A stretch of DNA of 64,000 nt, taken from the NCBI GenBank assembly GCA_947165485.1, contig CAMVAP010000006.1, forward strand, positions 1 through 64,000, in the 5' to 3' direction. The notes under the pieces were generated by a model. It ran no database searches. It had not been told where the DNA came from and saw only the letters and a program-made list of their open reading frames with translations. A program made the position numbers and the translations under genes. How positions within the stretch are numbered: position 1 is the first letter of the stretch; each line of letters opens with the position of its first letter. Below are positions 18,224 to 61,791 of the stretch, in pieces. Source of the stretch: an uncultured Prevotellaceae bacterium. Its GTDB lineage: Bacteria > Bacteroidota > Bacteroidia > Bacteroidales > Muribaculaceae.

Positions 18224-19486
18224 ATGAAAGCATTAATGTTTGGCTGGGAATTTCCGCCTCACATCCTGGGTGGACTGGGAACAGCGAGTTACGGACTCAC
18301 CAAGGGCATGTGGGAGAACGGTGACATGGACATCACCTTTGTCATCCCCAAGCCCTGGGGCGATGAGCCCAAGGATTTTGCACACATCATCGGTGCCAAC
18401 AGCACACCGGTTGCATGGCGAGACGTGAACTGGGACTATGTACAGAGCCGCATCGGCAATGTGATGGACCCACAGATGTATTACAACCTGCGCGACCACA
18501 TCTACGGTGACTTCAACTACATGAGCACCAACGATCTGGGCTGCATTGAGTTCTCGGGACGTTACCCTGAGAACCTGCTGGAGGAGATCAACAACTACAG
18601 CATAGTGGCCGGTGTCATCGCCCGCACGGTGGATTGCGACATCATCCACAGCCACGACTGGCTCACCTATCCTGCCGGTATCCACGCCAAGCAGGTCACC
18701 GGCAAGCCTCTGGTCATCCACGTGCACGCCACCGACTTTGACCGCTCACGCGGCAATGTCAACCCCACCGTGTTCAGCATCGAGAAGGACGGCATGAACC
18801 ATGCCGACCACATCATCACCGTGAGCAACCTCACGCGCCGCACGGTCATCGAGAAATACGGCATCAACCCCGACAAGGTGACTACCGTGCACAATGCTGT
18901 CGATCCCCTCAACGATGAACTGCTCAACCTGCCCATTCCCCCGGGCAAGCAGAACAAGGTTGTCACCTTCCTGGGACGCATCACGATGCAGAAGGGACCC
19001 GAATACTTTGTCGAGGCTGCTGCCCAGGTGCTGCACAAGGTGAACGACGTGCAGTTTGTCATGGCCGGTAGCGGTGACATGATGAACAAGATGATACGCC
19101 TTGCCGCCAAGCGAGACATCGCCGACCGTTTCCACTTCACCGGATTCTTGAAGGGCAAGCAGGTGTATGAGATGCTCAAGGCCAGTGATGTGTACATCAT
19201 GCCATCGGTGAGCGAGCCATTCGGCATCTCACCGCTTGAGGCGATGCAGATGGGCGTGCCCTCGATCATCAGCAAGCAGAGTGGCTGCGCCGAGATTCTG
19301 GACAATGTCATCAAGATTGACTACTGGGACACCAACGCCATGGCCGATGCCATCTACAGCATCATCAAGTATCCCGCCATGTACAACGAGTTGCGCGAGC
19401 AGGGACTGGCCGAGGTAGCCCAGATCACCTGGGACAAAGCCGGTGCCAAGGTCATCGACATCTATCGCAAACTCATCAACCGTTAA
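18224..19486 (+). CDS. GT4 glycosyltransferase, probable glycogen synthase
   Basis: A 420-aa GT-B glycosyltransferase. The N-terminal donor loop motif GGLGTASYGLT (about 16-26) and the C-terminal family-4 motif SEPFGISPLEAMQMG (about 328-342) are clear. Placement between debranching enzyme and GH57 marks it as the glycogen-chain-elongating enzyme of Bacteroidales. The start at 18224 is set by an unusually strong Shine-Dalgarno (AAGAGGAGG, 18207-18215) for this phylum; a frame start at 18191 would include that site. A heptad stop array begins at its TAA. Confidence 0.87.
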   Translation: MKALMFGWEFPPHILGGLGTASYGLTKGMWENGDMDITFVIPKPWGDEPKDFAHIIGANSTPVAWRDVNWDYVQSRIGNVMDPQMYYNLRDHIYGDFNYMSTNDLGCIEFSGRYPENLLEEINNYSIVAGVIARTVDCDIIHSHDWLTYPAGIHAKQVTGKPLVIHVHATDFDRSRGNVNPTVFSIEKDGMNHADHIITVSNLTRRTVIEKYGINPDKVTTVHNAVDPLNDELLNLPIPPGKQNKVVTFLGRITMQKGPEYFVEAAAQVLHKVNDVQFVMAGSGDMMNKMIRLAAKRDIADRFHFTGFLKGKQVYEMLKASDVYIMPSVSEPFGISPLEAMQMGVPSIISKQSGCAEILDNVIKIDYWDTNAMADAIYSIIKYPAMYNELREQGLAEVAQITWDKAGAKVIDIYRKLINR

Positions 19487-19524
19487 CCGCTAACAACTTA
19501 AGAACTAAAAACTAACAACTCAAG
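19484..19524 (+). repeat. Heptad stop array after the GT4 gene
   Basis: Starting at the gene's own TAA stop (19484-19486) the sequence runs as units of 7 (one of 8): TAACCGC, TAACAAC, TTAAGAAC, TAAAAAC, TAACAAC. TAA recurs at a period close to 7, giving stops in more than one frame. It ends just before the GH57 ATG at 19529. Confidence 0.55.
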
Positions 19525-19528
19525 ATAT

Positions 19529-20974
19529 ATGAAAGCAATTTGTTTTTATTTCCAGATTCATCAGCCATTCAGGTTGAAACACTACCGCTTCTTTGACATC
19601 GGTAATGACCACTACTACTATGATGACTTTGCCGACGACGACATCATCACACGCATCGCCGAGCGGTCTTATCTGCCCGCCAACGAGATGCTGCTTGACA
19701 TGATCAAGGAGAATGGCAAGAAGTTCAAGGTGGCTTTCTCCATCAGCGGAACCGCACTGGAACAACTGGAGCAGTATGTACCCGAGTTCATCGACTCGAT
19801 GAAGGAACTGGCCGCCACAGGATGTGTCGAGTTCCTGAGCGAGACCTATGCCCACAGCCTGTCATCGCTCTATGATCCTGACGAGTTTGTTGCCCAGGTC
19901 AAGGCCCATGACGAGAAGATCTTCCAACTCTTTGGGCAGAGGCCCAAGGTGTTCCGTAACACCGAGCTCATCTATGATGATGATATCGCCTCGATGGTCT
20001 ATTCGATGGGCTTCAAGGCCGCTATCACCGCCGATGCCAAGCACGTGCTGGGCTGGCGATCGCCCAATTTCCTGTACAGTTCGGCCTCGGCACCCAAGCT
20101 CAAGTTGATGTTGAAGAATAGCAAGTTGAGCGACGACATCTCGTTCCGCTTCAGCAACCCCGAGTGGGCCTCCTATCCCCTCACTGCCGACAAGTACATC
20201 CACTGGATTGACGAGTTGCCCCAAGAGGAGCAGTTGATCAACTTGTTTATGAATTATGACGCATTCGGTGAATTGCAACCGCGCGAGAGCGGCATCTTTG
20301 AGTTCATGAAGGCACTGCCACGCTTTGCCGCCGAGAAGGATATCCAGTTCTGGACTCCTAGCGAAGTCGTTTCCAAGTTCAAGCCCGTTGCCGAGCTGGC
20401 TGTGCCCTACCCCATGTCCTGGACCGACGAGGCTCGCGACACCAGCGCATGGCTGGGCAACACCTTGCAACAGGAAGCTGTCAAGAAGCTATATTCCATC
20501 GGTGAGCGCGTGCGCCTGTGCACCGATCGTCGCATCAAGCAGGACTGGAACTACTTGCAGGCCAGCGACCACTTCTTCTACATGTCAACCAAGCACAATG
20601 ACGATGGCTCGGTACATAGCCACTACAGCCCTTATGACTCGCCGTACACAGCGTTCACCAACTACATGAACGTTTTGAGCGACTTCATGACCCGCGTCGA
20701 GGAGCAGTACCCGGCCAGCATCGACAACGAGGAGTTGAACTCACTGCTGCTGACCATCCGCAACCAGGAGCAGGAGATTGAGAAACTGCACCGCGAGGTT
20801 GACCTGATGCGCAACAACATCGTCAAGGACACTACCGGTGACTTCCCCATCGACATGCCCGCACCTGTAGAGGAGGAAAAACCCGCTCCCAAGGAAAAGC
20901 CTGCCACCAAGAAGAAAACAGCAGCCAAAAAGCCTGCGGCCAAGAAGAAAACCGCGGCCAAGGAGGCAAAATAA
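19529..20974 (+). CDS. Glycoside hydrolase family 57 enzyme with Lys/Ala-rich tail
   Basis: A 481-aa GH57 alpha-glucan enzyme. The N-terminal FQIHQPFRL motif and the nucleophile region VFRNTELIYDD (Glu in NTELIY) match the family, and SAYTHSLSSL-like and WTPSEV segments follow. It probably trims or branches glycogen in the cytoplasm with the two enzymes encoded upstream. The last 34 residues (448-481) are a Lys/Ala/Pro tail (KPAPKEKPATKKKTAAKK style) like a histone-H1 tail and unlike the usual GH57 end. A coiled-coil segment (about 405-435) precedes it. A strong terminator follows. Confidence 0.88.
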   Translation: MKAICFYFQIHQPFRLKHYRFFDIGNDHYYYDDFADDDIITRIAERSYLPANEMLLDMIKENGKKFKVAFSISGTALEQLEQYVPEFIDSMKELAATGCVEFLSETYAHSLSSLYDPDEFVAQVKAHDEKIFQLFGQRPKVFRNTELIYDDDIASMVYSMGFKAAITADAKHVLGWRSPNFLYSSASAPKLKLMLKNSKLSDDISFRFSNPEWASYPLTADKYIHWIDELPQEEQLINLFMNYDAFGELQPRESGIFEFMKALPRFAAEKDIQFWTPSEVVSKFKPVAELAVPYPMSWTDEARDTSAWLGNTLQQEAVKKLYSIGERVRLCTDRRIKQDWNYLQASDHFFYMSTKHNDDGSVHSHYSPYDSPYTAFTNYMNVLSDFMTRVEEQYPASIDNEELNSLLLTIRNQEQEIEKLHREVDLMRNNIVKDTTGDFPIDMPAPVEEEKPAPKEKPATKKKTAAKKPAAKKKTAAKEAK

Positions 20975-21157: not shown

Positions 21158-22675
21158 ATGGCAAAATTCCGCAACTTCATGTTAATGAGCATGTGCGCGC
21201 TGATGATGGTACCCGCCATGCGCGCCGAGCACTTGATGATTATCGCTGTTAATGACACCCACAGTCAGGTTGACCCCGCCAGCGACGGCAATGGCGGTGT
21301 TGCAAGACGCCGTGCCATCTATGACAAGCTGCGTGCCGACAACCCCAACACCGCGCTCATCCATGCTGGTGATGCCGTGCAGGGCACCCTATTCTTCTCG
21401 CTCTACCGCGGCGAGGTGGAATATGCCTTGATGGACACGCTGGGCTATGATGCCATCATCCTGGGTAATCATGAGTTTGACAACGGCATGGAGGAACTTG
21501 CCAATCATTACCGCAACGTGGATGCGGTGAAGATGAGCGCCAACTATGACTTCAGCGCCACGCCACTCGATGGCCTGTTCCATCCCTACTGGATCAAGGC
21601 TGTGGGCGACAAGCGCGTAGCCTTCTTTGGCATCAACGTCAATCCGGCTGGATTGATAGCCGACATGAACTGCAAGAACCTGCGTTACCGCAATGCCCCC
21701 GAAGTTGCCGATGCCACTGCCCGTTACCTCAAGGAGGTGCTGGGCATGGACTATGCCATCATGGTGTCTCACATCGGTTACAGCAGCTATGAGCCCACCG
21801 AACCTAACGACACACTCATCATCGGGCACAGCCATTACATCGACATGGTCATCAGTTCCCACTCCCACACGACCATCAAGCCTGGTAGCGGCATGGACCG
21901 CATTGCCAATGCCGACGGCAAGTTGATACCCATCGGACAAAATGGCAAGAGCGGCAAGCTGGTTGCTACCTATGACCTGGACTTGGAGACGGGCGATATC
22001 GTCTATAACCAAATCCCCGTTGATGCAAGTTGGGATGAAGCCGCCAGCCAGTACACGGCCATGAACCAGTGGCTTGACCAGTACCGCAACGGTGTGGACA
22101 GCATTATGAACAATCCGGTCGCCATCAGTGCCCGCTTCATGAAAAACTCCAGCGATGCCGCCCAGAACTGGGTGAGTGATGCCACAATGGACATCATCAA
22201 GGAACTCTCGGGCATCAAGAACATCGACTGCGCCATCATGAACAAGGGCGGCATACGCATGGATATGCCCAAGGGTACTGTCACCGAGGGTGTCATCAGC
22301 TCGATGTTCCCCTTTGACAACCGATTTGTCGTGCTTGAGATGCCTGGTACCGAACTCATCGAGAGTATCCAACTCATGTGCGGTCGCGGTGGTGATGCCG
22401 TGAGCAAGGAACTGCGCGCCACCTACAACGATGAGGGCAAACTCATCAAGGCCACCCTCAAGGGCAAGAATATCGACCCCGAGAAGATGTACAACGTTGC
22501 CACTATCGATTATCTGGCCAACGGCGGCGACTACATGACACCCATGACCCGTTGCAAGCGCCTGTTTGTCGATACCCAGAAGTATGGCAGCCACATCCTC
22601 AAGTATGTCAAGGCGCTTAATGCCGCAGGCAAGAAAATCGACGCCAAGGACGAAGTGAGGATTAAGAGGAAGTAG
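21158..22675 (+). CDS. Periplasmic 5'-nucleotidase/UshA-like metallophosphatase
   Basis: A 505-aa exported enzyme. A signal peptide (about 1-23, ending AMRA) is followed by the calcineurin-like metallophosphoesterase domain with NDTHSQ, GDAVQG, LGNHEFDNG and SSHSHTT, then the 5'-nucleotidase C-terminal domain (INKGGIRMDMPKG-like and FPFDNRFVVLEMPG). It probably releases nucleosides and phosphate in the periplasm. The start at 21158 follows from the promoter and signal peptide. Its TAG stop is the first unit of a seven-unit heptad array. Confidence 0.88.
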   Translation: MAKFRNFMLMSMCALMMVPAMRAEHLMIIAVNDTHSQVDPASDGNGGVARRRAIYDKLRADNPNTALIHAGDAVQGTLFFSLYRGEVEYALMDTLGYDAIILGNHEFDNGMEELANHYRNVDAVKMSANYDFSATPLDGLFHPYWIKAVGDKRVAFFGINVNPAGLIADMNCKNLRYRNAPEVADATARYLKEVLGMDYAIMVSHIGYSSYEPTEPNDTLIIGHSHYIDMVISSHSHTTIKPGSGMDRIANADGKLIPIGQNGKSGKLVATYDLDLETGDIVYNQIPVDASWDEAASQYTAMNQWLDQYRNGVDSIMNNPVAISARFMKNSSDAAQNWVSDATMDIIKELSGIKNIDCAIMNKGGIRMDMPKGTVTEGVISSMFPFDNRFVVLEMPGTELIESIQLMCGRGGDAVSKELRATYNDEGKLIKATLKGKNIDPEKMYNVATIDYLANGGDYMTPMTRCKRLFVDTQKYGSHILKYVKALNAAGKKIDAKDEVRIKRK

Positions 22676-22721
22676 GTTTTAGGCTTTAGGTTTTAGGCTT
22701 TAGGGTTTAGGGTTTAGGGAC
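22673..22721 (+). repeat. Seven-unit TAGGNTT heptad array starting at a stop codon
   Basis: Exact 7-bp units begin at the nucleotidase TAG stop: TAGGTTT, TAGGCTT, TAGGTTT, TAGGCTT, TAGGGTT, TAGGGTT, TAGGGAC. TAG is invariant while the other positions vary. It looks telomere-like but is internal and short. Confidence 0.8.
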
Positions 22722-22755
22722 TATTTGTTGAAAGAAAAGGAAAGGACAAAATATA

Positions 22756-40740: not shown

Positions 40741-40776
40741 TTAGGGATTAGTGACTAGTGAACTAGCGACTAAGAA
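40741..40776 (+). repeat. Heptad stop array between the sugar transferase and recQ
   Basis: After TGAGAT, from the stop codon at 40736, come TAGGGAT, TAGTGAC, TAGTGAAC, TAGCGAC, TAAG units (40742 on), period 7 with one 8. It ends 6 bp before the recQ ATG. Confidence 0.6.
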
Positions 40777-42723: not shown

Positions 42724-42746
42724 TTCCATAAGCGCCTCGATATGTT

Positions 42747-42838
42747 TAGGTGTTAGGCGTTAGGTAAGCGGATGCCACCTAAAACCTAAAACCTAAAACC
42801 TAAAACCTAAAACCTAAAGCCTAACAGCCTAAAACCTA
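42747..42838. repeat. Two opposing heptad stop arrays between convergent genes
   Basis: On the plus strand TAGGTGT, TAGGCGT, TAGGTAA (42747-42767) face the recQ side. On the minus strand, beginning at the FGE gene's own TAG stop (42838-42836), come TAGGTTT, TAGGCTG(T), TAGGCTT, then five TAGGTTT and TAGGTGG, down to about 42775. So each convergent gene is met by stops in its own orientation. Confidence 0.8.
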
Positions 42839-44764
42839 GTTGGTTGACGACAGTGCGAGCCTAAAGCCTACCAGGTTGCCGCCTTCAAAGGGTAAAGTGT
42901 AGGTGTACCTGCGCATCGCGCAACTGCAATAACTGGCGTTGTCATCAAAGCAGCCACCCCTCAAGACTCGTTGTGTGCCCGTGGCAGGCCCCGTGGGGTT
43001 GGTCTGCGGCTCGGGGCTATAACCTCCATACCAGTCCTGGCACAGTTCCCTCACGTTACCACTCATGTCATAGAGCCCCAACTCGTTAGGAAGCAGCAAG
43101 CCGACAGCTTGAGGCCCAAACAGGTGTCCCTGCTGGGCGATGCCCGCATTGCTATGATACCAAGCGACTTCCTCGATATAACGACTGCCGGAATAGCGGT
43201 AATGCCTGCTGCGGTTGCCACCACGAGCGGCAAATTCCCATTCGGCCTCGGTGGGCAAGCGGAAGGTAAGCCCCGTCAACTCATTCAGCCTGGCAATAAA
43301 TTCCTGACACTCGTCCCACGACATATTCTCGACCGGACCTTGTGGATCGATAAAACTGGTGAAATCTCCACCGCTGGGATTATAGCCCATGATAGCCGTC
43401 CACAGTTCCTGGGTCACTTCGGTTTGGCCGATGCAATAGCTCGACAATGTCACTTCATGAACCAGACAACGGTCGTCATCGTCACCGAAACTCAGCCCTT
43501 GCTCATCGGTATTGCCCATCATGAAGGTGCCCCCCTCGACAGGCATCATCTTGAAGGCCACACCGGCAACGTTATACTCCATGCCAACCCTCACGAGCAC
43601 CTGGGCCTGCAAGTCGCTCTGGTCATCGGTAATAGTGATTGTCGCGGTTCCTGCTCCTGTAGCCCTGATATATAGGGTTGCACCCATCATTGAAGGCCTC
43701 ACAACTTCATGATCAGAGCTGGTAGCCTGATAGGAGCCCTTGCCGTTACTGATGGACACCGTCGCGACATCGCCCACCAGCATCTCCACGTTATCCTCGC
43801 TCACGCCCAGCGCCACGGGTCTGCGGTCTTGCAGCGCCAGCCTCATGCCGTTGTAGCCATAACAGATGTTTGTTTCCTCATAACGCCGGGCCGTCACACG
43901 GCAGTCGGTGGCCGCATGAACCCGACTGCCGCCCCTGAAGACACGGAAGTCACTACCCTCATTCATATAGACAGGATCCACCTGTGGTGTACTGGGGTAT
44001 CGGGCATGGCTGCCCATGCACCACTCGGCAACATTGCCACTCATGTCGTAGAGGCCCAACTCATTGGGTTGCTTGGTAGCGACCTCTAGCGTCCAACTCA
44101 CATCACTGGAACAGTTGTCCCTGTACCATGCCACCTCATTGATGTCGTCACTGCCGGCATAGGTATAGCCCTTGCTCTCCTTGCCGCCACGTGCCGCATA
44201 TTCCCATTGCGCCTCGGTGGGCAGCGAGAAACGATAGCCCGTGAGCACGTTGATGCGATCAATAAATTCCAGGCTTTCATCCCACAGCAGGTCATCAACG
44301 GGCAACTTGTAGCCCTTATAGAAACTGCGGTTGATACCCATGGCGGCGACCCACACGGCTTGTGTCACCTCGGTTTCTCCTATATAATAAGATGACAAAG
44401 TGACCTCATGGGTCGGCATTTCGTCGCTTTTCCCGCTATTGTTGCCCATGGTGAATGTTCCACCATCCACCTTCACCATCTTGAAAGAGGAATTTCCAAC
44501 TTTAAACGTGAGCGTTTCATGGTAATGTTCCCCGCTCAGGATCACATCAATCAATGTGTTGATGTCGGCAATATTGACCTCACCATCGACGTTCACGTCA
44601 GCCGCAGAATCTTCGGTCGCGTCAAATATGGCATCGATAACCGCATTGATGTCACCGATGTTGACCTCTCCATCACCGTTCACGTCATAACCTGCACCTG
44701 GCGCTGCCGCCATCTTAAAGACCAGTGAGCACAGGCCAAACAATAGAAAAACCACTCGTTTCAT
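42836..44764 (-). CDS. Secreted protein with N-terminal dockerin and two FGE-sulfatase-like domains
   Basis: A 642-aa exported protein: signal peptide (about 1-21), a dockerin pair of EF-hand-like loops (DVNGDGEVNIGDINAVID, DVNVDGEVNIADINTLID; about 27-75), a first FGE/SUMF1-like domain (about 85-320; GGTFTMGNN, ETEVTQ, LPTEAQWEYAARGG, GNVAEWC), an Ig-like segment (about 325-395), and a second FGE-like domain (about 400-642; GGTFMMGNT, LPTEAEWEFAARGG, RGGCFDD). The Cys pair of true formylglycine-generating enzymes is not evident, so it is probably a binding or unknown-activity module. First of three minus-strand dockerin genes. Confidence 0.82.
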   Translation of the reverse strand: MKRVVFLLFGLCSLVFKMAAAPGAGYDVNGDGEVNIGDINAVIDAIFDATEDSAADVNVDGEVNIADINTLIDVILSGEHYHETLTFKVGNSSFKMVKVDGGTFTMGNNSGKSDEMPTHEVTLSSYYIGETEVTQAVWVAAMGINRSFYKGYKLPVDDLLWDESLEFIDRINVLTGYRFSLPTEAQWEYAARGGKESKGYTYAGSDDINEVAWYRDNCSSDVSWTLEVATKQPNELGLYDMSGNVAEWCMGSHARYPSTPQVDPVYMNEGSDFRVFRGGSRVHAATDCRVTARRYEETNICYGYNGMRLALQDRRPVALGVSEDNVEMLVGDVATVSISNGKGSYQATSSDHEVVRPSMMGATLYIRATGAGTATITITDDQSDLQAQVLVRVGMEYNVAGVAFKMMPVEGGTFMMGNTDEQGLSFGDDDDRCLVHEVTLSSYCIGQTEVTQELWTAIMGYNPSGGDFTSFIDPQGPVENMSWDECQEFIARLNELTGLTFRLPTEAEWEFAARGGNRSRHYRYSGSRYIEEVAWYHSNAGIAQQGHLFGPQAVGLLLPNELGLYDMSGNVRELCQDWYGGYSPEPQTNPTGPATGTQRVLRGGCFDDNASYCSCAMRRYTYTLPFEGGNLVGFRLALSSTN

Positions 44765-48464: not shown

Positions 48465-48593
48465 GGGTTAACAGCATCATTCTGACTTCATTTTAGACTT
48501 TCTAAAATGTTAAATATCAATCTATTATAAAACAAAAAGTTCATTTTGGGATAATCTTGCAGAATATGGCTCAAAATATTGGAGAAAAAGTCT

Positions 48594-48601
48594 TACTTTT
48601 G
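48594..48601 (+). promoter_or_regulatory. -7 element of the TPR regulator gene
   Basis: TACTTTTG, 28 bp before the ATG at 48630. It excludes the frame start at 48579. Confidence 0.58.
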
Positions 48602-48629
48602 CGACACCATAAACCAACAAACCCTAGAA

Positions 48630-50417
48630 ATGAAACCGAGAAATCTTATTTTCACACTCGCAGTTTTCACCCTGGCCCTGACATGCTGCAACGGTGGCCA
48701 TGACACTGCCGCGATGCGAGAGTTGGCCAGCATCGATTCGGCACTGACCATCGCGCGACAATATGAAAGCGCCCAGCAACGCCTGGACTCCATGCGCCCC
48801 GCCTCGTTTTCCAAGGCCGAGCGTGCCTACTATAACCTGCTCATTACCCAAGCCCACTACAAGAACTACATCGACGACACGACCGATGCAGTGATCAATG
48901 AGGCCGTCAATTACTACAAGAATCATGGCGATGAGCCCGAGAAACTCACCCGCTCACTGCTTTACCAGGGTTGCGTCTATGAAATCCTGGGTGATGCCGA
49001 AAAAGCGATAGCGTCCTACAAGGATGCCGAGAACGTGGCCGAGGATGATGACATGGAAAACAAGGCCTACGCCAAACTAAGGCTTGCTACCCTCTATGCC
49101 GACAATTCCAACTATGCTGGCCTGAAAATCAAGAAATACAAGGAGGCCCTCGACCTGTACCGTCGATTGGGAGACAAACATTACCAGATCGTGTGTCTTA
49201 CCGACATTGGCGGCTTTTATCGCAACGATACCACCAGCAGCGACAGCGCCCTGTATTACATCAATCGAGCGATAGAATTGTCACAGGCCCAGCACGAGAA
49301 TTGGTTCCTGTTCCAGAACCTGTATTATCGCGCCGAGATGTACTGCCTGCTCACCAGGGAGTACAACAAGGCCCGAGTGGATATTCTCAAGGCGCTGGAA
49401 GCCGGCAAGGGCGAGATTGACCATCCCCGGGCACACTATATAGCCGCCGAGACTTACCTGAACTTGGGCCGCCGCGACTCAGCACTGTACTATCTGAACC
49501 ATGCGCCCGCCAGCGGCAGGATGAGTAAAAGCGTCAGTGACAAGGTGATGTATTACCGCATCCTGAGCGAGATTGGCAAGGCAGACAAGGATTGGGACAC
49601 ATACACCACCAACTTTGAACGAGCCAACGAGATGGCCGACTCTATATTATTAGATAATGTGAATAAGAATTATCTGGAAGTAGAGAAGAAATATGACCTC
49701 CAGCTCGAAGAGCTCAAGAAGGTGAAAAGTGAGTCACGCATGAGAGGCGCCATCATGCTAGCGGCACTGCTGGCCTTGCTGGCGCTAGGGCTGACGTTCC
49801 TGGCATGGCGTTACCGCAGCCGCCTGAGGCAAAAGACGACCGAATATGAGCTGCAACGGGCCGACCTTGACGCATCGCTGGCCAGCCTGCAACAGATGAG
49901 GACAACCATCGGCAACTATGAGCACCAACTCAAGGCCACGCAAGACGAGCTGCGAGGCAACGAGGTGCGCATGAGTGAGGAACTGGCCACCCTGGAAGAG
50001 AGAAAGCGCCAGAGCGACGAGATGCGCTCGATTCTTGACAACCAGATTCAGGTGATTCACAAGCTCATGCAGCTGTCCTACGAGAACACCGAGGCCACCT
50101 TCATCCGCAAGTTCACCGAGGTGATGTCTCTCCCCAACGAGGGCGCTCTACCCACCGACTCCTACTGGAGCAACCTTTATACCCTGGCCAACGAGTTGCA
50201 CAACAATGTGCTGGTCGAGGCTCAGCGCATCGCCGGTGGCACACTCAACGAGAGCGAAATCAACTTCCTAGCCCTGTATTGCTGCGGTTTCTCGCGGACG
50301 GTCATCATGATCTGCATGAAGTATAGTAGCCTGGGCACCGTCTCCAACAAGAAGATCCAGATTGCCAAGAAGCTGGGTGTCAACAACCTCGACGACTTTG
50401 CTAACAATTATAGATAG
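48630..50417 (+). CDS. TPR membrane protein with LuxR-like C-terminus (candidate regulator)
   Basis: A 595-aa protein. An N-terminal lipoprotein-like signal (ALTCC, Cys about 18) precedes TPR-type helical repeats (about 60-340; YEILGDAEKAIASYKDAENVA). A single membrane segment (about 370-392, LAALLALLALGLTFLAW), a long coiled coil (about 400-485) and a C-terminal helix-turn-helix-like region follow (LNESEINFLALYCCGFS, about 535-590). Such TPR-TM-HTH proteins in Bacteroidetes are thought to be membrane-tied regulators; no DNA target is known here. Its TAG stop starts the longest heptad array. Start taken from the -7 box. Confidence 0.75.
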   Translation: MKPRNLIFTLAVFTLALTCCNGGHDTAAMRELASIDSALTIARQYESAQQRLDSMRPASFSKAERAYYNLLITQAHYKNYIDDTTDAVINEAVNYYKNHGDEPEKLTRSLLYQGCVYEILGDAEKAIASYKDAENVAEDDDMENKAYAKLRLATLYADNSNYAGLKIKKYKEALDLYRRLGDKHYQIVCLTDIGGFYRNDTTSSDSALYYINRAIELSQAQHENWFLFQNLYYRAEMYCLLTREYNKARVDILKALEAGKGEIDHPRAHYIAAETYLNLGRRDSALYYLNHAPASGRMSKSVSDKVMYYRILSEIGKADKDWDTYTTNFERANEMADSILLDNVNKNYLEVEKKYDLQLEELKKVKSESRMRGAIMLAALLALLALGLTFLAWRYRSRLRQKTTEYELQRADLDASLASLQQMRTTIGNYEHQLKATQDELRGNEVRMSEELATLEERKRQSDEMRSILDNQIQVIHKLMQLSYENTEATFIRKFTEVMSLPNEGALPTDSYWSNLYTLANELHNNVLVEAQRIAGGTLNESEINFLALYCCGFSRTVIMICMKYSSLGTVSNKKIQIAKKLGVNNLDDFANNYR

Positions 50418-50498
50418 TTGATAGTTGTTAGTTGTTAGTTCTTAGTTGTTAGTTCTTAGTTGTTAGTTCTTAGTTGTTAGGTGTTAGGTGTTAGGTGT
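50415..50498 (+). repeat. Twelve-unit heptad stop array
   Basis: Twelve consecutive exact 7-bp units begin at the gene's TAG stop: TAGTTGA, TAGTTGT x2, then TAGTTCT alternating with TAGTTGT, then TAGGTGT x3. TAG is invariant in every unit, and the alternation of G/C at unit position 6 suggests amplification by 14-bp slippage. The convergent transporter gene ends 26 bp later, also with a TAG (read on minus). Confidence 0.88.
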
Positions 50499-50523: not shown

Positions 50524-51867
50524 CTAAATAATTCCTGTGAGATAGAGGAAGATGAAAATGATACTCACGGGAGCCACATAGCGCAAACAGAAGACAAAGT
50601 AGGATTCTGACTTGCCCTTGAGACGACCACCGTTGGTCAACTGGTCGTGGAGCACCTTGCGATCCATGATCCAGCCCACATATACTGCAGTGAACACTCC
50701 ACCCATGAGCATGAAGATGTTGCTGGCGGCATAGTCCATCGCGTCAAAGATGCTCTTGCCAAAGATCTTGACATCCTCAAGCACATTGAACGACAACGCG
50801 GCCACCACAGCCAGGGCAAAGGTAAACACGGCTGTCCATGCAATGGCACGGGGACGCGACATCTTGCGCTCCTCGATCATAAAGGTGATGGGGATCTCGC
50901 TCAATGAGATCGTCGAGGTCAACGAGGCAAAGAACACCAGCAGGAAGAACAACAAGGCCCAGAAATATCCACCCGTCATCTGCTGGAAGATGCCTGGCAG
51001 CACCTCAAAGATGAGCCTTGGGCCAGCCGTCGGCTCTACACCAAAGGAGAATACAGCAGGGAAAATCATCACACCCGAGAGGATGGCTACCAGCGTGTCG
51101 AGCACACCCACCATCGTGGCGTCCTTGACCAGCGAAATGTCATCCTTGAAATAGGAGCCGTAGGTCACCAGGCATGAGATACCGATGGAGAGAGACAAGA
51201 AGGCTTGCCCAAACGCATCCAGCACCCCTCGCAGGGTCAATTGGGAAAAGTCGGGATAGAAAAGGAATTTCAACCCCCTTGATACGCCAGGCAGGAACAA
51301 CGCCTTGATACAGAAGATTATGAGAATGAGAAACAGCAACGGCATCATGATGCTGGACACACGTTCAATGCCCTTCTCGATGCCACGGCTCATCACCATA
51401 AAGTTAAACACCAGGAACAACACCGTCCACCCCACACAGCGCCATGGATTGGCCACCAGCGACGAGAACATATCGTTATACTCCTGGGCGCTGTGACCGC
51501 TCAATTGCCCCATCGCCGCCTGATACAGGTACTCGATGATCCAGCCGCACACCACGCTGTAAAAGCCGATGACCACAAAGCTGCCCAAGATGCAGACATA
51601 GGTAAACAAATAATACTTCTTGCCTGGAGATAACTGCTTGAGCGCAGCCTTCATATTGCTGTGGGTCGATCGACCGATCACAAACTCACTCAATATCACA
51701 GGAATACCCATCACCAGAATGCAACAGATGTACACCAGGATAAAGGCACCACCACCGTTTACTCCTGCCTCATAGGGGAAACGCCAGATGTTTCCCAGTC
51801 CCACAGCCGACCCTACCGCTGCCGCGATAGCGCCCATGCGTGTTGCAAATCCCACTCGTTTTGCCAT
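50524..51867 (-). CDS. Sodium-dependent transporter of the NSS/SNF family
   Basis: A 447-aa inner-membrane protein of the neurotransmitter:sodium symporter family, about 11 to 12 helices. The sodium/substrate-site signature is at the N-terminus (RMGAIAAAVGSAVGLGNIWRFPY, TM1), with GGGAFILVY in TM2 and a Ser-rich TM8 (ASLTSTISLSE). Bacterial members mostly import amino acids such as tryptophan, leucine or tyrosine; the substrate cannot be told. Upstream (61 bp) is the short HhH-type gene, also minus. Confidence 0.92.
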   Translation of the reverse strand: MAKRVGFATRMGAIAAAVGSAVGLGNIWRFPYEAGVNGGGAFILVYICCILVMGIPVILSEFVIGRSTHSNMKAALKQLSPGKKYYLFTYVCILGSFVVIGFYSVVCGWIIEYLYQAAMGQLSGHSAQEYNDMFSSLVANPWRCVGWTVLFLVFNFMVMSRGIEKGIERVSSIMMPLLFLILIIFCIKALFLPGVSRGLKFLFYPDFSQLTLRGVLDAFGQAFLSLSIGISCLVTYGSYFKDDISLVKDATMVGVLDTLVAILSGVMIFPAVFSFGVEPTAGPRLIFEVLPGIFQQMTGGYFWALLFFLLVFFASLTSTISLSEIPITFMIEERKMSRPRAIAWTAVFTFALAVVAALSFNVLEDVKIFGKSIFDAMDYAASNIFMLMGGVFTAVYVGWIMDRKVLHDQLTNGGRLKGKSESYFVFCLRYVAPVSIIFIFLYLTGII

Positions 51868-61702: not shown

Positions 61703-61728
61703 TACACTTTTAATAACAAACACGATAA

Positions 61729-61791
61729 AAACTAGAAACCAGAAACTAGAAACTAGGGACTAGAAACTAGGGACTAAAAACTAACAACCGA
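61729..61791 (+). repeat. Heptad stop array after prfC
   Basis: Nine 7-bp units: AAACTAG, AAACCAG, AAACTAG x2, GGACTAG, AAACTAG, GGACTAA, AAACTAA, CAACCGA. Seven of the nine bear TAG or TAA in the same position; CTAG also reads TAG on the minus strand. It ends 6 bp before the next ATG. Confidence 0.78.

Follow-up and report, generated by a model that had tools for sequence, protein, structure and literature searches.

Short tandem arrays with a period of 7 bp (heptads) are abundant between the genes of the bacterial genome studied here and of its relatives. Near genes these arrays have a fixed polarity and abut gene ends, they keep register with stop codons and not with start codons, the stop codon is switched at arrays, the units are species-specific, and individual arrays are present in one genome and absent from another. 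We lean towards the view that they are gene-edge repeats which spread, take on the units of their species and are laid against gene ends with fixed polarity, and that the stops which they offer in all frames are probably a by-product. The stop register, which is matched to the identity of the stop and absent at starts, provides a sharp clue to array placement.

Heptad arrays in the window

The window, the whole 64,000-bp stretch of DNA that was analysed, comprises bases 1-64000 of contig C6 of a 3.03-Mb genome in 100 contigs (G000), and its arrays and neighbouring features are listed in Table 1. Six intergenic arrays had been reported there by the initial annotation, five of them with coordinates, and the sixth is taken to be that at 61726. 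The five were recovered as described, namely those at 50415, 22673 and 42838 with a TAG stop as unit 1, that at 19484 starting at a TAA and that at 40741 following a TGA, and the 7-bp rule ascribed to all of them is broken by one 8-bp step each at 19484, 40741 and 42838.

Table 1. Heptad arrays and neighbouring features in the window
Feature	Position	Strand	Remark
AACTAA-type array	19484..19520	+	starts at TAA stop, ends before ATG 19529
TTTAGGY/TTTAGGG heptad array	22673..22723	+	TAG stop is unit 1
Short TAG/TAA heptad array	40741..40774	+	between TGA stop (40736) and recQ ATG (40782)
Opposite arm TTTAGGTGTTAGGCGTTAGG	42745..42764	+	recQ side
Separator GCGGATGCC	42768..42776	+	between the two arms
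TTTAGGT heptad array	42777..42838	-	TAG stop of ORF 42836-44764 is unit 1
ORF	48579..50417	+	weak BT3442 family match, 65 bits, below the curated cut-off of 940
TTAGTTG/TTAGGTG heptad array	50415..50498	+	between convergent genes
Convergent ORF, sodium-dependent transporter family	50524..51867	-	
AACTAGA/GGGACTAG array	61726..61789	+	between prfC and next ATG (61797)

The array at 50415 had been described as 12 exact units, which is right for the spacing, TAG being found at 50415, 50422, 50429 and at every seventh base on to 50492, and wrong for the sequence of the units. Its first TAG (50415-50417) is the stop of ORF 48579-50417, and a further TAG at 50411 is out of register with it. At this site two relatives, G006 and G009, carry a TAA stop and no array, and the protein ends at the same codon in all three (...NNYR* in the window and G006, ...PYR* in G009). 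At the 22673 site, G006 has TAA without an array and G009 has TAA with a different (TTAGGAG) array. The 8-bp step of the 42838 array lies later than unit 1, and because of it this array is scored off by one in the majority-register test. TAA recurs at 19484, 19491, 19499, 19506 and 19513 in the 19484 array, of which no counterpart was found at this site in G006 or G009, and TAG or TAA recurs at 40742, 40749, 40756, 40764 and 40771 in the 40741 array. The array behind prfC begins 23 bp after a TAA and runs toward the ATG; L239 carries it as the window does, L240 and L303, which share ~84-89% identity with the window over the longest aligned pieces, lack it, and it has been gained or lost between genomes ~84% alike. 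The prfC protein is 98% identical to those of the MAGs RUG12225 (uncultured Bacteroidales), Muribaculaceae bacterium Tb.RUG.404 and one uncultured Porphyromonadaceae bacterium, which places the genome with the uncultured Bacteroidales of this group. Separately, imperfect 18/33-base repeats occur at 20874-20962 of the window, at the 3' end of ORF 19529-20974, and were read from the letters as a repetitive lysine/alanine/proline-rich tail.

Abundance and period of the arrays

A tandem-repeat scan with a threshold of 28 bp or longer was applied to 864 kb of G000 and returned 71 arrays of period 7. Periods 4, 5 and 6 gave 0, 0 and 5 arrays, periods 8, 9, 10, 11, 12 and 13 gave 5, 7, 0, 0, 9 and 0, and period 15 gave 5; the 61 arrays of period 14 reflect a length of twice 7. 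Period 7 is thus dominant, periods which are not multiples of 7 having yielded 0-9 arrays. Block shuffles of the first 464 kb yielded none at any period from 4 to 15. The window together with 400 kb yielded 61 period-7 arrays against 0-4 for each of periods 4-6, 8-13 and 15, and two of the 61 lay mostly inside called genes, i.e. the repeats are mainly intergenic. Gene ends were taken from an in-house ORF caller and not from curated annotation.

The 864-kb sample is made up of a first 400 kb partly chosen at listed matches (57 arrays), a second, poor 400 kb (10 arrays) and the window (4 arrays). It represents 28.5% of the genome and holds 121 of the 335 and 137 of the 418 whole-genome matches to two array patterns (33-36%), from which we infer about 200 heptad arrays across the whole genome. 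Contig C3 of G000 begins inside a heptad array (L064:1-62), and short-read assemblies may therefore break at arrays and contain too few of them.

Unit classes and conserved core

The 71 arrays of G000 were classified as 29 TTAGG.., 25 AACTAA., 9 AACTAG., 3 AACTGA. and 5 others. Across 209 TTAGG units of G000 the five bases are conserved at 0.92, 1.00, 1.00, 1.00 and 0.98, figures that lean high because the classes were set by their own consensus and the register was anchored on TAGG. Across 160 AACTAA units the six bases are conserved at 0.98, 0.97, 0.99, 0.95, 0.94 and 0.87, the third base of TAA being the least kept. The statement that non-core positions vary freely and only the stop triplet is kept does not agree with these data, as one class retains TTAGG (5 of 7 bases) and the other AACTA(A/G), and the conserved core of the unit is larger than the stop triplet.

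This result bears on the function proposed along with that statement, a fail-safe termination in which arrays are kept for the stops that they place in every frame behind that of the gene itself. Its arithmetic is correct, since 7 mod 3 = 1 does bring stops into all three frames. Selection for stops is nevertheless an unlikely explanation in our judgement, given a conserved core that exceeds the stop and only 71 arrays among the 634 called genes of the G000 sample.

The main units (TTAGGYT and AACTAAC/AACTAGA) contain GG at most, with some GGG variants, e.g. at 22673, and the main units lack G-runs able to form quadruplexes. AACTGA heptads, including TAACTGA repeats, were found in the genus member G430, their reverse strand being stop-free by inspection.

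Polarity and placement at gene edges

Near genes, TTAGG arrays lie after genes and AACTRA arrays mostly before ATGs, both on the coding strand. Samples from ten genomes (G000, G009, G006, G449, G420, G430, G326, G318, G186 and G021) were pooled, and the pooled counts describe placement and not density because the stretches of the relatives were mostly picked at listed matches (G430 excepted). Within 12 nt of a gene, arrays are T/G-rich reading away from it in 78 of 94 cases at 3' ends and in 48 of 49 at 5' ends, which is to say that 48 of the 49 read A/C-rich toward the ATG. Farther than 12 nt from a gene this polarity is weak or gone (15 T vs 17 A at 3' ends, 19 T vs 11 A at 5' ends).

Of 85 associations of TAG-core arrays with a stop, 66 are within 3 nt of it, compared with 4 of 12 for stop-less arrays, and although part of the gap is forced, because only a stop-carrying array can overlap the end of an ORF, the stop does therefore matter to placement. 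The 12 stop-less associations, two of which are one locus, are heptads that have no stop on the coding strand and follow a stop in G000, G009, G420, G430, G318 and G186. The more frequent abutment of TAG-core arrays agrees with selection for termination, whereas the occupation of the same kind of site by stop-less heptads, as well as the similar repeats that precede start codons, speak against it.

Register with stop codons

Register was determined for coding-strand TAG-core arrays starting between -25 and +12 of a stop in the ten pooled genomes. Register 0 was found in 40 of 74 arrays, with ~11 expected, and the other six registers in 10, 4, 4, 5, 9 and 2 (binomial test on 1/7, p = 1.3e-15). 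The phase with the stop codon that the initial annotation had noticed is thus far above chance, in G000 alone (14/22) as in the pool, to which eight of the ten genomes contribute. It recurs in other genus members and in family f28 (G326, 5/9), and all three arrays of family f10 (G021) are in register 0 but share their upstream sequence and could be copies of a single one. The pooled sets thus include probable copies, namely these G021 loci among the stops and, among the starts, two loci of G186 with the same flanks, which in our judgement are too few to alter the conclusions. Chance was rejected as an explanation on the above p value against 1/7 and on the empty block shuffles.

When arrays starting between -25 and +6 of a stop were split by core, register 0 was found in 39 of 67 with TAG, 8 of 11 with TAA and 3 of 4 with TGA, and the stop at register 0 was TAG in 37 of the 39, TAA in 8 of 8 and TGA in 3 of 3, respectively. 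No register was detected at start codons, the 33 A-type arrays within 12 nt of an ATG being distributed as 8, 3, 5, 3, 5, 2 and 7 (chi-square p = 0.40). At such arrays 41 of the 74 genes end in TAG, versus 261 of 1408 called genes (Fisher p = 2e-13), and stop-codon usage in such genomes is in this sense partly tied to repeats. Register with all three stop types is a point in favour of fail-safe termination, and the occurrence of arrays after TAA and TGA stops as well (33/74 for TAG-core arrays near stops) is a point against it.

A null of 1/7 is a generous one, as any array running past an ORF end supplies the in-register stop itself; PMC4679880 makes the same point for TAACTGA, where the array itself gives the first in-frame stop. 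By our own reasoning, if overrun occurred in a random frame, about two thirds of the arrays should have one or two units before the stop, and a unit-like match (at least 5 of 7) just upstream of the stop was seen in only 10 of the 40 register-0 arrays.

Array-less relatives, i.e. best BLAST matches in the sampled stretches and not proven orthologues, were compared for 31 register-0 arrays of G000, G009, G006, G449 and G420, the 9 of G326, G318 and G021 being left out. Any match in the samples was available for 15 of the 31, and five of these were dropped, either because every matched relative also has an array (L072/L162, L138/L150) or because the 3' end was unaligned (L159). In the 10 testable cases the protein of the relative ends at the same codon in 6, is displaced by one codon in 3, and differs by 5 and 8 codons in the remaining one (at least 6 of 10 at 1/7 chance, p = 0.001). 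The six same-end cases include the 50415 and 22673 arrays, and the stop of the relative is TAA in five of them, the sixth having TAG in G006 and TGA in G009. Judged from these alignments, the array therefore usually appears to overlie a pre-existing stop and to convert it. Creation of the stop by the array, with replacement of the protein end, was considered as well and fits the array of L076 (minus strand, 15898; end shifted by 5 and 8 codons) and perhaps also the three cases displaced by one codon, but not the other six.

Proposed origin of the arrays

In the gene-edge reading, short period-7 tandem arrays would arise and change in intergenic DNA, each species using a few unit sequences, and the units would be spread and homogenised by slippage and by recombination among arrays. 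At a 3' end, a new array would be laid against or over the existing stop, an overlapping array would survive where its own TAG, TAA or TGA core falls on that stop, and TAA would often become TAG with the protein end retained; the few bases that a stop has in common with the end of an array (TA, A-GG) probably strengthen the register bias and may guide placement. Before a start codon, the A/C-rich unstructured strand may act as a harmless or useful leader in Bacteroidota, which rely little on Shine-Dalgarno sites. Read outward from a gene at either end, a nearby array is mostly a T/G-rich TTAG heptad. The polarity that fades beyond 12 nt stands against this reading, and so does the outward T/G strand at 3' ends, for which it does not account. 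The excess in register is likewise greater than a pure tolerance model allows, with ~24 same-end register-0 cases (our estimate, 60% of 40) against ~6 per other register, and thus needs a placement mechanism or selection.

A rival reading is stop-codon seeding, in which an array starts from the stop triplet, or from TA/TAG microhomology of the stop with an existing array during template switching, and the stop is its first unit. We consider seeding possible but less likely than the gene-edge reading. The identity of core and stop at register 0 and the lack of register at ATG agree with it, as do the junctions TAG-G, TAA-GG, TGA-GG and TAA-AGG, which by eye have A or TA in common with the array, and two array-less relatives that are already unit-like at the junction (AGCTTTAA, TATTAA). 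On the other hand, in five of the six same-end cases the relative has TAA in place of the TAG of the array gene, which makes it probable that the TAG core was absent beforehand; the unit sequences are genome-wide and not local, and the junctions [TAA]TTAGG and [TAA]nTTAGG lack obvious common bases. A broader version, by which the stop codon across the bacterial order is the anchor or seed for TAG-, TAA- and TGA-core arrays built outward, the ancestral stop being converted to match, seems doubtful to us to a similar degree. If true, stop-anchored building would be a gene-end-guided repeat propagation that records stop-codon switching, and it was not found described in the literature searched.

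Paired arms and RNA folding

The arrays might also be RNA elements, in which hairpins of the paired arms (T-type, GCGGATGCC or GGCATCCGC, A-type) would terminate transcripts or protect their 3' ends, and A-type arrays would act as unstructured translation leaders; this, too, we regard as unlikely. The order is T then A in 30 of the 30 intergenic regions with both types (26 tandem, 3 divergent and 1 convergent), as such an element would have it, but 134 of the 164 array-bearing intergenic regions have one type only. The two-armed composite of the window matches several places in G006 and G009, and 43 matches to GCGGATGC were found in the 464-kb sample, 22 of them intergenic by gene calls, with heptads on both sides by eye in 10 of the 22.

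As + strand RNA, 42745-42838 folds with z = -4.7, and stable folding was predicted for composites with z of -5.4, -4.7, -3.0, -2.7 and -2.5, while two others (-0.7 and +0.8) were no better than shuffles (60 shuffles each). The pre-start array of L062 has an mfe of 0.0, in keeping with an unstructured leader, and the 50415 array, with z -0.8 on the + strand and an mfe of 0.0 on the - strand, does not conform to a hairpin role. Because paired-arm hairpins are stable in some cases and not in others, a terminator role is possible but not general. The 9-mer GGCATCCGC / GCGGATGCC also forms the arms of intergenic hairpin-like inverted repeats (L062:7971-8004 and L075:13639-13666), as if one motif were common to terminator-like hairpins and array joints.

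Relation to known heptameric repeats

The arrays belong to a known kind, intergenic heptads with gene-edge polarity having been described in PMC4692102 and start-codon heptads with all-frame stops in PMC4679880. The passages of PMC4692102 considered here report G-rich heptameric repeats, GGGAATC in Xanthomonas and GGGGA(C/T)T in Nostoc/Anabaena, which resemble ours in being of period 7, mostly intergenic and abundant. According to these passages, the G-rich strand is the sense strand up to 50 bp from a stop or the antisense strand in the 50 bp before an ORF; of the Xanthomonas GGGAATC repeats that follow an ORF, most are on its coding strand and no more than 50 bp from the stop, some overlapping it, convergent (inverted) pairs occur in Xanthomonas, and few repeats lie between divergent genes. 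The same polarity was observed here for the T/G-rich strand within 12 nt and is weak or absent farther away. The unit is a different one, with quadruplex-forming G runs there and mainly GG or single G here, and stop register is not reported in those passages. Gene-edge polarity in Bacteroidales, with units mostly without three or more G, argues against G-quadruplexes as its general cause. GGGAATC contains no stop in any frame by inspection, and stop-free Xanthomonas heptads with the same placement, as the passages of PMC4692102 describe them, are further evidence against fail-safe termination.

In the parts of PMC4679880 considered here, TAACTGA direct repeats are recorded from marine Beggiatoaceae, some Cyanobacteria and five Bacteroidetes as intergenic heptads, most of them in forward orientation shortly before a start codon and some overlapping an upstream stop, and the author states that TAACTGA gives stops in all three frames and is so confined to ORF ends. 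The AACTRA class likewise lies in forward orientation a few nt upstream of start codons, and G430 carries the very same unit. The window units TTAGTTG, TTTAGGY and AACTAGA are different ones, and the post-stop TTAGG arrays are a separate class. Tandem repeats in archaeal Borgs (PMC9879509) and DNA-structure features of prokaryotes (PMC4060949) are related themes.

Long simple sequence repeats and cyanobacterial STRR are similar in that heptanucleotides are the most abundant class in many genomes, and polymerase slippage has been proposed for them. We know of no polarity or stop register for these repeats. No literature on such repeats in Bacteroidales or Muribaculaceae was found, and searches with four array strings of 10-12 bases returned no bacterial-repeat paper by title among the matches listed. 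As far as searches of the open-licence literature show, three features are new, namely a stop register that agrees with the identity of the stop, the lack of such a register at starts, and the arrangement of the Bacteroidales arrays in two classes.

Turnover among relatives

Arrays come and go between species, and some persist. TTAGTTG-type matches (up to 2 mismatches) were found in 40 of 61 genus genomes and 43 of 393 order genomes, and TTTAGGC-type matches (up to 3 mismatches) in 37 of 61 genus genomes; match counts per genome within one genus range from 0 to 418. No real period-7 array was present in small samples of the array-poor G452, G442 and G437 (20, 50 and 48 kb; a 2.1-kb piece masked). 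Behind the gene ending at L070:14746, the units differ among G000 (AACTAGA), G006 (GGACTAA) and G009 (AACTGAA). Near-identical units are conserved between G009 L138 and G006 L150, where the genes are 87% alike, and array site and class are common to G000 L072 and G449 L162 (84% alike). Arrays kept at ~84-87% species identity fit selection better than free slippage; they count against the gene-edge reading, and the conservation of some arrays between species is a point for fail-safe termination. A pattern scan for one composite joint across the named genomes gave no match, near records of the own genome possibly having been excluded.

Other repeated sequences were encountered in the same stretches. 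About 120 bases at L070:17982-18104 have over 20 matching places in G009 and further ones in G006, several of them on both strands, and constitute a separate dispersed repeat family near heptad composites. About 400 bases at L076:6690-7099 match more than 30 places in G009 and G006 at ~65-79% identity, and apparently represent a multi-copy domain.
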